Position numbers and translations under genes: made by a program
Shown here: positions 33,778-37,158 of the stretch, one piece after another
How positions within the stretch are numbered: the first letter of the stretch is position 1
How the letters are laid out: each line of letters starts with the position of its first letter
The notes under the pieces: generated by a model
Databases searched by the model: none
Told to the model about the DNA's origin: nothing
The model's input: the letters and a program-made list of their open reading frames with translations, nothing else
IMG/VR virus record: IMGVR_UViG_3300032893_000141
Coordinates: 1 to 40,454 of that record
DNA length: 40,454 nucleotides
From: a virus
Direction: 5' to 3' (one strand)

Positions 33778-34262
33778 GTCATCGTCCTCTGCCCATATCG
33801 GGCGATCAGAAGCGCATCGGCGCGCCCGTCATGCTTGGCCAGCGGACACAGATGGGCGCCGAATAGCTGCCGCGCGATGCGAAGGCTCTGTTGCTTCGTG
33901 TCCTCGCGCTCGGTCTTGCGGATGCCGAAATAGCCCTGCCATGCCTTCGGCGTGACGTAGGCCACATCGAACCCTGTCAGCTCGCACACGGTGGCGATGG
34001 TGGCCTTCGTAGCCTCCAGCGAGCCCATCGTCTGCACGCTGCCGCCGGCGAAAGTGTTCAGCGCCTCCATGACGACGAGGCCGCGCTCGTCGGCCGGGAC
34101 GAGTTCACGCAGGATCGCCTGCAGCGCCTTCGGATCGATCTCGTTGCGAACCTTGCCGTTACCCTGCTTTGCGCGGATGGGCATGTCGCGCACCACCGGC
34201 TCGTCGTTGTGGTCGAGGCGCGCGATTGCGCCGCGGATGCCTGGGTCGATTGCGATCAGCAT
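33774..34262 (-). CDS. RuvC-like Holliday-junction nuclease
   Basis: 162 residues. RNase H-like fold: IAIDPGIRGA with Asp6, VVMEAL with Glu66, and KHDGRADALLIARY with Asp145 and Asp149 complete the metal site. Such proteins cut branched DNA made by recombination and replication before packaging. ATG 34262 shares one base with the helicase stop (TGATG); GTG 34265 is an alternative. It complements ERF, exonuclease and NinB encoded on the other arm. Confidence 0.83.
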   Translation of the reverse strand: MLIAIDPGIRGAIARLDHNDEPVVRDMPIRAKQGNGKVRNEIDPKALQAILRELVPADERGLVVMEALNTFAGGSVQTMGSLEATKATIATVCELTGFDVAYVTPKAWQGYFGIRKTEREDTKQQSLRIARQLFGAHLCPLAKHDGRADALLIARYGQRTMT

Positions 34263-35224
34263 CACTTGCCCCACACCGCATCCCAGCGGTTCTCGATCAT
34301 GTTGAGAGCCACGGCGCCGCCTTGACGCACATCGCGGAACTGCAGGCTCTCGGCGTCGAACCAGAGCTTCTGCGTGCCTTCCCACGTGTAGTGGCGCTGC
34401 TTGGCGCAGATGAGCGTCGTGTCGGCCATCGATTCGATCAGGGCGCGCTTCTCGGGCGTCAGATCCTTGCGCAGATCTGCCTCTTTAGCCTTGTTGCGAT
34501 GCACGATCAGCACGTTGTCAACGAGATCGGTGATCTCCCCGGCTCCCTTCAGGTCGAACTTGTCGGGAATGTTCGATTCCTTCTCGCTCTTGCGCGCGTG
34601 GTGCACAAGGTGGATATGCAGGTCCGTGTCCCGAGCGAGCGAGCAGAGCTGATCGACGAAATTCTTCTGGCCGGCATAGTCGTCGGGGGCAATACCGCAC
34701 TTGAGAATGCTGTCGATCACCATGTGCTGGACGCCCAACTCACGCCGGCAATAGCGGGACACAGCCAGCATCCGATCTCGCTGGACGGTGCCGATGTGGT
34801 TGTAGATCCAGAGACGGCCATCGGTCCAGCGGCCAAACTGAGACAGGAACTGGCCGGTAGGCTTCTCGACGCACGCGGCCTGCCGGGCCAGACGCTCTAG
34901 GGTGGCGCGCGGTCGCATTTCCATCGATGCGATGCACACACGATCGCCGGCGCTCATGGCGTGCAGCATGGCGTATCCGAGCACTGCGGACTTGCCGTGG
35001 CCATTCACGCCGCCCCAGAGCGTTACCTCACCCGGACGGAATGCGAGATCGTGCCCGACGGAGGGCCAGGGTGTGCGAGTGCCGTGCACCTGCTCAGCAA
35101 CGCCGCCGTGCAGATACTCGATCAGCTCTTCCGTGAATTCCGACGCCTTTCGCACATCGGCGCGGCCGTCGTCTTCGTCGTTGACGTAGGCTGCCCAATC
35201 AACATCGTCGGGGATCATTCTCAC
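34262..35224 (-). CDS. DnaB/gp4-like replicative helicase core
   Basis: 320 residues. RecA-type motor: Walker A GVNGHGKSA (72-80), catalytic Glu102 in SMEMRP, Walker B MVIDS (168-172), then HLVHHARKS (205-213) and the finger region GAGEITDLVDNVLIVHRNK (227-245). It lacks the N-terminal DnaB domain, so it is like short phage helicases. GTG 35224 is preferred over ATG 35218 because GGAG is 8 bases upstream. Expected to unwind DNA at the fork after loading by the initiator. Confidence 0.85.
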   Translation of the reverse strand: MRMIPDDVDWAAYVNDEDDGRADVRKASEFTEELIEYLHGGVAEQVHGTRTPWPSVGHDLAFRPGEVTLWGGVNGHGKSAVLGYAMLHAMSAGDRVCIASMEMRPRATLERLARQAACVEKPTGQFLSQFGRWTDGRLWIYNHIGTVQRDRMLAVSRYCRRELGVQHMVIDSILKCGIAPDDYAGQKNFVDQLCSLARDTDLHIHLVHHARKSEKESNIPDKFDLKGAGEITDLVDNVLIVHRNKAKEADLRKDLTPEKRALIESMADTTLICAKQRHYTWEGTQKLWFDAESLQFRDVRQGGAVALNMIENRWDAVWGK

Positions 35225-35706
35225 TGTGCGTTCTCCAGGGCAATTTTCACGACGAGATCACATGCCTCGTCGTAGGGGATAGGAATGGACTTGCCAAGCT
35301 CGCCGCAAATACGCTTGGCGATCATGGCGCCTTCGAGATAGCAGTTCGGGCCGATTCCCATCGGGAACCAGTCGAACAGCCGGAAATCGGTGATTTGCCG
35401 CCACTCGCCGCAGTGCACGCGTGGGCCTTCGCGGAATGTCAGGACCATCGATTGCGGCACAACCGCGGCAATGGCACCCAAGCTGCGAAGCAGGTCTGCG
35501 AACGGCGTGCTCGAGCTGGCGAAGACCTCGATGTTCAGCCCGGCAACCGGACGCCAGTCGAACGATTCGCCTGCATTGGCCTGAAGCACCACGTTCGTGA
35601 ACTCAGGCAGCGCGCCAACGAACGAGACGAGCACCGGCAGGTCAGGTACGACGCCTTTCATGCGCATCTCGATCAAGGCTGCAGCGTTACGCGGATAGCG
35701 GTCCAT
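35221..35706 (-). CDS. Hypothetical protein between initiator and helicase
   Basis: 161 residues. Starts MDRYPRNAAALIEMRMKGVV; mixed alpha/beta with EFTNVVLQANAGESFDWRPV, LTFREG, and a helical C-terminus (DEACDLVVKIALEN). Stop overlaps the helicase start. Position suggests a replication accessory or host-interaction role, with no motif to confirm it. Confidence 0.65.
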   Translation of the reverse strand: MDRYPRNAAALIEMRMKGVVPDLPVLVSFVGALPEFTNVVLQANAGESFDWRPVAGLNIEVFASSSTPFADLLRSLGAIAAVVPQSMVLTFREGPRVHCGEWRQITDFRLFDWFPMGIGPNCYLEGAMIAKRICGELGKSIPIPYDEACDLVVKIALENAQ

Positions 35707-35712
35707 GAAGGC

Positions 35713-36597
35713 TCACAGGAACGGGTTGTCGACGAGTTCACCACGCGAATTGCGCGTGACCAGCGAGGAGATATCGAGATCGGTCGAGCCGTTCGCAGGC
35801 CGGATTTCGTCTTCCCACCGGCGCTGATTCAGCCAGGTGGAGGCAAACGGGATGTATTTGCCGCCATCCCGCATCCACTGCTCGGTTTCGCAAAACCGCT
35901 CCAATGCCTCGAGCAAACGCTGCTGCAATGCAGGCGAAGGATTAAGCTTTTCGTAGGCCTTTTGCGCGGGAACCTTCGAGTCCTTTCTCGGGTACCGCTT
36001 CCAGAAAATCGAGAAGGAATCTTCTTTCTCGATTCGAGAAGGAGCTTTCTCGATTTCTTTCTCGACACCCAAATCGAGAAGACTTTCTCGGCTTTCTCGA
36101 TTTTTCTCGATTGCTCGCGCGCGCGTTGGGTTGGTTTTGGTTGTTGGGTTGGTTGTTGGGTTGGTTTTTCCTTGTAGGTACTTAAAAAACCTTGGAAAAA
36201 CTACCCCCCCCATACCCCCCCCAATCCGCGAATCGAGAAGATTTCGAGAAGAATCGAGAAAGGATTCGAGAAGGATTCGAGAAGAATCGAGAAAAGTGTC
36301 AGAGCCGAAATCGAGAAGATTTCGAGAAGAATCGAGAAGACCTCCTTTCTCGATTCGAGAAAGCCAGCCGACCTGAACGAGGGCATTCGAGAAACCTTCG
36401 AGACGCACATAGCGGTCAATCCACTCCGGGTTGACACCCAAAGCGAGCCCGTCTGCCAGATGCCGGTCTGCCCAGCTCCAGAGTCGGTGAAGACGGCCGA
36501 CGACGGCGAATTCATCGACGCCCAGCGTCGATGCCAGAGAGATCACGACGGGGTCTTCTGAAAGGTCTGTTTGCATTCTGATTGATTCGGCGGACAT
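35713..36597 (-). CDS. Replication initiator/organiser containing the candidate origin
   Basis: 294 residues from ATG 36597 (shares one base with the upstream stop). N-terminal part (about 8-85; TDLSEDPVVISLASTLGVDE, GRLHRLWSWADRH, GWLSRIEKG) resembles winged-helix domains of phage initiators. Residues 88-125 are a DNA-driven repeat (LLDSSRNLLDFGSDTF, FLDSSRILLES). C-terminal FWKRYPRKDSKVPAQKAYEK and FASTWLNQRRWEDE matches the DnaT/replisome-organiser tail that recruits helicase. As with lambda O, the coding sequence carries a repeat array likely bound by the protein itself. Two G8 runs lie inside the gene. Confidence 0.78.
   Translation of the reverse strand: MSAESIRMQTDLSEDPVVISLASTLGVDEFAVVGRLHRLWSWADRHLADGLALGVNPEWIDRYVRLEGFSNALVQVGWLSRIEKGGLLDSSRNLLDFGSDTFLDSSRILLESFLDSSRNLLDSRIGGGMGGVVFPRFFKYLQGKTNPTTNPTTKTNPTRARAIEKNRESRESLLDLGVEKEIEKAPSRIEKEDSFSIFWKRYPRKDSKVPAQKAYEKLNPSPALQQRLLEALERFCETEQWMRDGGKYIPFASTWLNQRRWEDEIRPANGSTDLDISSLVTRNSRGELVDNPFL
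35985..36403. other. Candidate origin of replication: iteron clusters inside initiator gene
   Basis: The hexamer CGAGAA or its complement TTCTCG occurs 22 times: ten between 35985 and 36109 (mixed directions) and twelve between 36234 and 36393 (mostly one direction). In the right cluster the steps are 11, 10, 12, 11, 10 bp, i.e. about one helical turn. Between the clusters are a GT-rich stretch (36124-36170), an A/T-rich stretch near 36181-36200 that could melt, and two C8 tracts. Together these are classic iteron-origin features. Confidence 0.75.
36231..36338. repeat. 30-bp direct repeat within iteron cluster
   Basis: An identical 30-bp block made of three iterons occurs at 36231-36260 and 36309-36338 (78 bp apart start to start). 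The exact identity at DNA level, in a coding region, suggests recent duplication or selection on DNA and not on protein. Confidence 0.85.
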
Positions 36598-36837: not shown

Positions 36838-37158
36838 TCAGTCCTCCCACACAAGCTGCTGCATCGTGTCTGGATTGCTCATGGCGCCGGACGCGATGGT
36901 GACGAGTGCCTGGTACATCGAATGGTCGACGCAGACGCGATCAATAGGCACGAGCTTCAGCCCGGCTACGGCCAGCACCTGACACGCTCGCTCCAGATCC
37001 TCGGAGACGAATCGGCTCACGGTGGGCGGTGAAACTCCGATTTCAGTCGCGATGTTGTTCTGCCCGACTGCTGAAATGCGCTGCAAGGCAAGGCTATGCG
37101 ACTTGCGTGCGCGTTCAGTTGCGGGAAGCGATGATTGGTCCACGATGTTCAGCCTCAC
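36838..37158 (-). CDS. cII: CII-like transcriptional activator
   Basis: 106 residues, GTG 37158 with AAGGA 7 bases upstream. Helix-turn-helix around residues 31-55 (GQNNIATEIGVSPPTVSRFV), followed by DLERACQVLAVAGLKLVPID typical of the phage CII family. Expected to activate repressor and integrase promoters when lysogeny is favoured. Second gene of the leftward early operon, as in lambda. Confidence 0.83.
   Translation of the reverse strand: MRLNIVDQSSLPATERARKSHSLALQRISAVGQNNIATEIGVSPPTVSRFVSEDLERACQVLAVAGLKLVPIDRVCVDHSMYQALVTIASGAMSNPDTMQQLVWED

Follow-up and report, generated by a model that had tools for sequence, protein, structure and literature searches.

Background

In bacteriophage lambda, the sites recognized by the replication initiator lie inside the O gene, between the parts coding for its N- and C-terminal domains, and are adjoined by the unwinding region (PMC7466680). 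The lambda origin contains four iterons of ~18 bp. Each consists of two half-sites in inverted orientation, which makes eight half-sites in ~86 bp. Among plasmids, the Rep protein of pSK41 has a winged-helix N-domain, origin boxes placed centrally in the rep gene and a dispensable linker, while pPR9 represents a published case, within the RepA_N plasmids, of an N-domain and origin being swapped together around a conserved C-domain (PMC5703833). The Rac prophage also carries a known origin, oriJ, which is active though normally repressed (PMC3945230).

The locus compared here with these systems belongs to a stretch of 40,454 bases (the window), virus record IMGVR_UViG_3300032893_000141. Its gene content is that of a temperate phage and includes a tyrosine integrase, Erf-like and RecE/YqaJ-like recombination genes, CI/Cro/CII-like regulators, terminase and portal; no DNA similarity of the window to deposited phages was found. 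Judging from the sequence and by analogy with the systems above, an array of short repeats within the initiator gene of this phage very likely makes up the binding-site part of its replication origin.

The initiator gene and its neighbours

The gene order, CI-Cro-CII-initiator-helicase, is lambda-like. The relevant genes and domains were as follows:

36838–37158, minus strand: CII-like regulator, upstream of the initiator (phrog_725, 2.9e-24)
35713–36597, minus strand: phage replication initiator gene, 294 aa, with ATG at 36597–36595; relatives align from the same ATG
36346–36597, minus strand: coding part of the N-terminal winged-helix-like domain, residues 1–84 (AlphaFold2 pLDDT 88–98 over 11–80; family alignment)
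35824–36018, minus strand: coding part of the C-terminal helical domain, FSIFWK...WLNQRRWED (phrog_9474 match; pLDDT mostly 88–96 over 191–260)
34262–35224, minus strand: DnaB-C-like replicative helicase, downstream of the initiator (PF03796, 1.4e-9; phrog_5482, 1e-63)

The initiator matched the 'replication initiation protein' profiles phrog_9474, phrog_2509 and phrog_270 with E-values down to 9.5e-40; in the profile search, phrog_2509 and phrog_9474 corresponded to its N- and C-terminal parts (2.6e-26 and 9.5e-40, respectively). It had no Pfam match, the RepA_N profile PF06970 matched neither the window protein nor 46 N-domain relatives, and homology with lambda O was rejected (hhalign probability 0.5%).

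The AlphaFold2 model of the N-domain contained helices at residues 29–46, 57–64 and 69–76 and strands at 51–53, 80–82 and 131–133, the last of these being the second wing strand, which is coded beyond repeat cluster 1 (see below). The linker (143–189) had low confidence in the model and is predicted to be disordered; the C-terminal domain is expected to contact the helicase or its loader. A Foldseek search of the PDB returned no significant fold match. Fold comparison recovered winged helices in general (Z ~4–5), pSK41-type Rep among them and tied with many unrelated ones; for the Rep structures of pSK41/pTZ2162 (5kbj, 4pql, 4pt7, 4pta), Z was 4.3–4.7, tied with CRP-type winged helices. Such Z values are too low to place the domain in a particular family.

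Between initiator and helicase lies a gene for a 161-aa protein without a family match (35221–35706), which is 44% conserved in the related contig L023; the order CII-initiator-orf161-helicase is retained there. Within the stretches examined, no homologues of the initiator's neighbours were found in three other relatives (L013, L015 and L033); different phages may accordingly use different helicase partners.

Structure of the repeat array

The array consists of three parts:

36233–36403: right cluster (cluster 1 in gene order); 12 hexamers, 11 on the plus strand and one on the minus strand, mostly at steps of 10–12 bp
36110–36232 (123 bp): centre; a GT-rich tract on the plus strand, followed by an A/T stretch and two C8 runs; candidate unwinding element
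35985–36110: left cluster (cluster 2); 10 hexamers, seven on the minus strand and three on the plus strand, in DNA coding for the disordered linker, residues ~163–205

An earlier note on this DNA had described 22 copies of CGAGAA/TTCTCG in about 410 bp, forming two clusters around a GT-rich and A/T-rich centre, with steps of about 10–11 bp in the right cluster and a simple Leu/Asp/Ser/Arg repeat in the encoded peptide. This description was borne out. There are 22 exact hexamers at 35985–36393, within the minus-strand gene at 35713–36597, of which 10 occur in 35985–36109 and 12 in 36234–36393; the centre is present between them and the peptide segment reads LLDSSRNLL...LDSSR. Successive steps are 11, 10, 12, 11, 10, 24, 11, 10, 14, 9 and 32 bp in the right cluster, which also has a one-mismatch copy (TCGAGAC) at 36398, and 25, 16, 9, 12, 12, 16, 10, 9 and 10 bp in the left. 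The right cluster codes for residues ~68–121, a segment that contains a long insert between the predicted wing strands. The repeat unit is better described as the heptamer TCGAGAA, with 20 copies in the initiator CDS. Of the note's 22-copy iteron origin, what is well supported is a set of iteron-like sites for the encoded initiator, selected at the DNA level, within its CDS; they behave as 7-bp half-sites, one per helical turn, rather than as complete iterons.

The centre codes for the conserved VVFPRF wing strand. On the coding strand it reads G8-TAT-G8, followed by GGTTTTTCC-like and AACC-rich sequence. Windows of low stability occur at and beside the centre, which is one of several such stretches in the window and not the least stable. 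The centre was also considered as a stable DNA hairpin, and this was not supported (z -0.92). The two C8 runs, split by ATA at 36204–36222 (G8 on the coding strand), could possibly form a G-quadruplex, and long G runs are kept at this position in L113, L115 and L116. A 5-bp purine tract, AGAGAAGAGAAGAGAAG, coding for TREEKRREEK, recurs in the linkers of L035 and many of L113–L192, a set of diverse phage initiators; the window initiator gene is without it and has the GT/AC tract instead. The purine tract may be a common element for unwinding or loading.

Selection at the DNA level

The repeats were far more frequent than expected from composition or from the encoded protein. Across the whole window, 62 hexamers were counted, compared with 29.7 expected from shuffles; in the 419-bp stretch, there were 22, compared with a dinucleotide-shuffle mean of 1.8 and maximum of 7. 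In 2000 shuffles keeping both protein and codon usage, the mean was 3.4 heptamers and the maximum 9, compared with 20 observed. The copies use five of the six frame/strand classes, and the constant feature is therefore the DNA pattern and not the peptide, in agreement with the earlier claim that the DNA pattern is what has been selected. When a test for such arrays was applied, 28 of 65 initiators passed, some relatives thus lacking an array by this measure, compared with one of 177 other ORFs; among similar-sized ORFs elsewhere in the window, no other had a comparable array.

Codon identity was compared between the window gene and two sisters that carry TCGAGAA (L116 and L113). At identical residues, the same codon was used in 39–44% of cases in the N-domain and 45–54% in the C-domain, compared with 70–95% in the arrays. 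The value for the centre was 75–81%, and the centre therefore appears constrained as DNA, although this holds for the closest sisters and is less clear for the pair L113/L115. G-C content at third codon positions was 0.39–0.50 in the arrays and centre, compared with 0.65–0.72 in the rest of the gene. Among relatives, including those with unrelated N-domains, repeated 6-mers were over-represented at 10, 11 and 22 bp relative to synonymous shuffles, the excess at 10 bp being partly caused by the 5-bp purine tract. That both arrays and the centre are selected at the DNA level, with helical spacing and conservation, was shown computationally, as was the co-variation of the repeat word with the N-domain described below.

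Relatives and the repeat word

Relatives of the window gene were sought in 2.9 million viral contigs (viral_contigs) using a pattern defined on DNA only, namely three TCGAGAA at steps of 10–13 bp. This yielded 21 stretches, three of which (L013, L015 and L023) contained the same initiator by tblastn, 45–62% identical and with arrays in the same place; for the remaining contigs, such as L011, L020 and L022, tblastn found no initiator relative. Searching viral_contigs and genome_contigs with the complete window protein produced nothing useful; scans by DNA pattern and by alignment worked. Most relatives were taken from viral contigs, of which several are incomplete.

One close relative of L113 (L033/L115) has 14 copies of TCGATAA and a single TCGAGAA, and for 13 of the 14 TCGATAA sites, one or more sisters have TCGAGAA at the aligned position. 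Its linker peptide shifts with the DNA word, from LLD to LID and from IEK to FDK or IDK; this peptide change is a passive consequence of the change in the DNA. Two of the N-domain residues specific to L115 (71 and 74) fall in the predicted recognition helix, and a connection between these modelled positions and the word switch, being a single case, is only suggestive.

A search with the N-domain identified 87 distinct relatives. In dozens of these, GTCACGC, GTAACGC or GTAGACG occurs 4–9 times at fixed positions, with clusters at nt ~137–194 and ~340–415 of the gene, steps of 11–13 bp and frequent converging pairs. The long insert between the wing strands, coded by cluster 1, belongs to the window clade; most relatives are without it and their cluster 1 is earlier in the gene. 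On the N-domain tree, relatives of the same motif class group together (9 changes, compared with 31.6 when shuffled), although this tree is short and weakly resolved, and tests on it are helped by close copies. Relatives sharing the C-domain only have unrelated N-domains, yet other words recur in them at steps of 11–12 bp, for example GACAAGC and TGCACAA. In L097, an ORF with an ATCGGGA array also contains a separate 6-bp repeat (CCCGATC) at nt 589–640, coding for (DP)n, by which its ATCGGGA count is inflated.

Two independent pairs, 83–97% identical in the C-domain, change both N-domain and DNA word together. In the Pseudomonas phages phiPSA1 and MR15, the C-terminal parts agree at 107 of 110 residues and the N-domains are unrelated, one of the window family and one DUF1376; their repeat words also differ (GCGGAC and GTGCAC). 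The Rac YdaU proteins of strains 442-2 and K-12 are 83% identical over the C-terminal 119 aa and have cleanly swapped N-domains (L245:1201–1989 and L247:5120–5977). The 442-2 gene, with a window-family N-domain, contains six GTAACGC, while the K-12 gene, with DUF1376, has a weaker TGTTCAA, occurring four times, a count not above the codon-shuffle maximum. Two more GTAACGC, convergent and perhaps autoregulatory, are found just upstream of ydaU in 442-2 (L245:1168–1186). A location of oriJ within ydaU is offered as a lead. From these sequence comparisons, the putative recognition sites and the initiator appear to evolve together.

Proposed mechanism and alternative explanations

The heptamers are, by their sequence, very probably docking sites of the encoded initiator. 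The winged-helix N-domain would bind TCGAGAA half-sites, about one per helical turn, in the two clusters. Once occupied, both clusters would hold the intervening DNA wrapped or constrained and melt the centre, which is GT-rich and in part A/T-rich; the C-domain, on its flexible linker, would then hand the phage DnaB-like helicase (34262–35224) to the opened strands. Binding, melting, helicase loading and origin activity are deduced from the parallels with lambda O (PMC7466680) and with pSK41 Rep (PMC5703833). A check of GC-skew for an origin, as the earlier note had proposed, gave no clear turning point at the array.

Three other explanations were weighed. The sites might bind the initiator mainly for autoregulation or copy control, through repression of its own operon or origin pairing, with replication starting elsewhere. 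Iteron-binding initiators often do both, as is established for iteron plasmids, and Rac 442-2 has its pair of GTAACGC just upstream of ydaU; but the arrays here are well inside the coding region and flank a centre constrained as DNA, which repression does not need, and the lambda and pSK41 precedents place the origin at this position (PMC7466680, PMC5703833). This explanation is considered improbable. Still less probable is that the array is a partition site (centromere) or is recognized by another protein, such as a host factor, or is a recombination signal. Arrays of short repeats do also make centromeres, but this phage has an integrase, and ParAB was not seen in the genes that were scanned; for a host factor, one would not expect the word to change with the initiator's own N-domain, as it does in the swaps and on the tree.

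The least credible explanation, with hardly any likelihood left to it, is that the repeat is a by-product of a needed low-complexity peptide (LLDSSR/IEK). The encoded peptide is indeed repetitive, but the copies are spread over frames and strands, synonymous shuffles fail to reach the observed count, the L115 peptide follows its DNA word passively, and codon identity points the same way; a peptide-driven repeat was rejected on these grounds. An origin within the initiator gene is preferred over all three.

It is also possible, if somewhat short of probable, that the window initiator represents a large, so far undescribed class of phage initiators with two helically phased heptamer arrays inside the gene around a centre. 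In such a class, N-domain specificity and origin would move together, by module swap or by near-complete rewriting of the word (TCGAGAA to TCGATAA), and the array of the window clade would have expanded about three-fold into the wing-coding DNA of the domain that reads it. If the reading of the array as an embedded origin is right, one short stretch per phage holds both the recognition domain of an initiator and its target, and natural matched pairs with different words exist; the specificity code of phage origins, and the joint change of a multi-copy array with its protein, become directly testable; and origins in uncharacterised temperate phages can be approached from sequence alone.

Comparison with known systems

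The window is similar to lambda O/ori in having a repeat array inside the initiator gene, between the parts for its N- and C-domains, a candidate unwinding region beside it, a half-site spacing of ~11 bp and a gene order of the CII-O-P type. Lambda has four 18-bp inverted repeats on one side of an AT-rich tract, and Stx-phage O genes have four to six iterons, whereas the window initiator gene has ~20 heptamers in two clusters flanking the centre, one of which codes for an insert in the predicted wing. The earlier claim that the array is denser than in lambda fails per bp because each lambda iteron is two half-sites ~11 bp apart; lambda likewise has roughly one half-site every 11 bp, density is equal, and the window array exceeds that of lambda only in site number and length. 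The SaPI origins resemble the window in layout, an A/T-rich region being flanked by two groups of short iterons; in contrast to the window, Rep of SaPI is a helicase in its own right and the SaPI origin is outside the gene.

The resemblance to pSK41-type Rep comprises the predicted winged-helix N-domain, the central array inside the gene and the swaps of N-domain and word among relatives; pSK41 has four boxes, compared with ~20 sites in the window. Rac YdaU of strain 442-2 and p23 of epsilon15 belong to the same N-domain family as the window initiator, with heptamer sites in two clusters inside the gene. They differ in having 4–8 sites rather than 20, in using a different heptamer and in placing cluster 1 earlier in the gene, while YdaU of K-12 has the DUF1376 N-domain instead. 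Origins inside initiator genes are already known, from lambda and the RepA_N plasmids; what differs here is the number of sites (~20, compared with 4–6 iterons), their arrangement in two clusters round a constrained centre, the position of cluster 1 in wing-coding DNA and a natural switch of word across the array.
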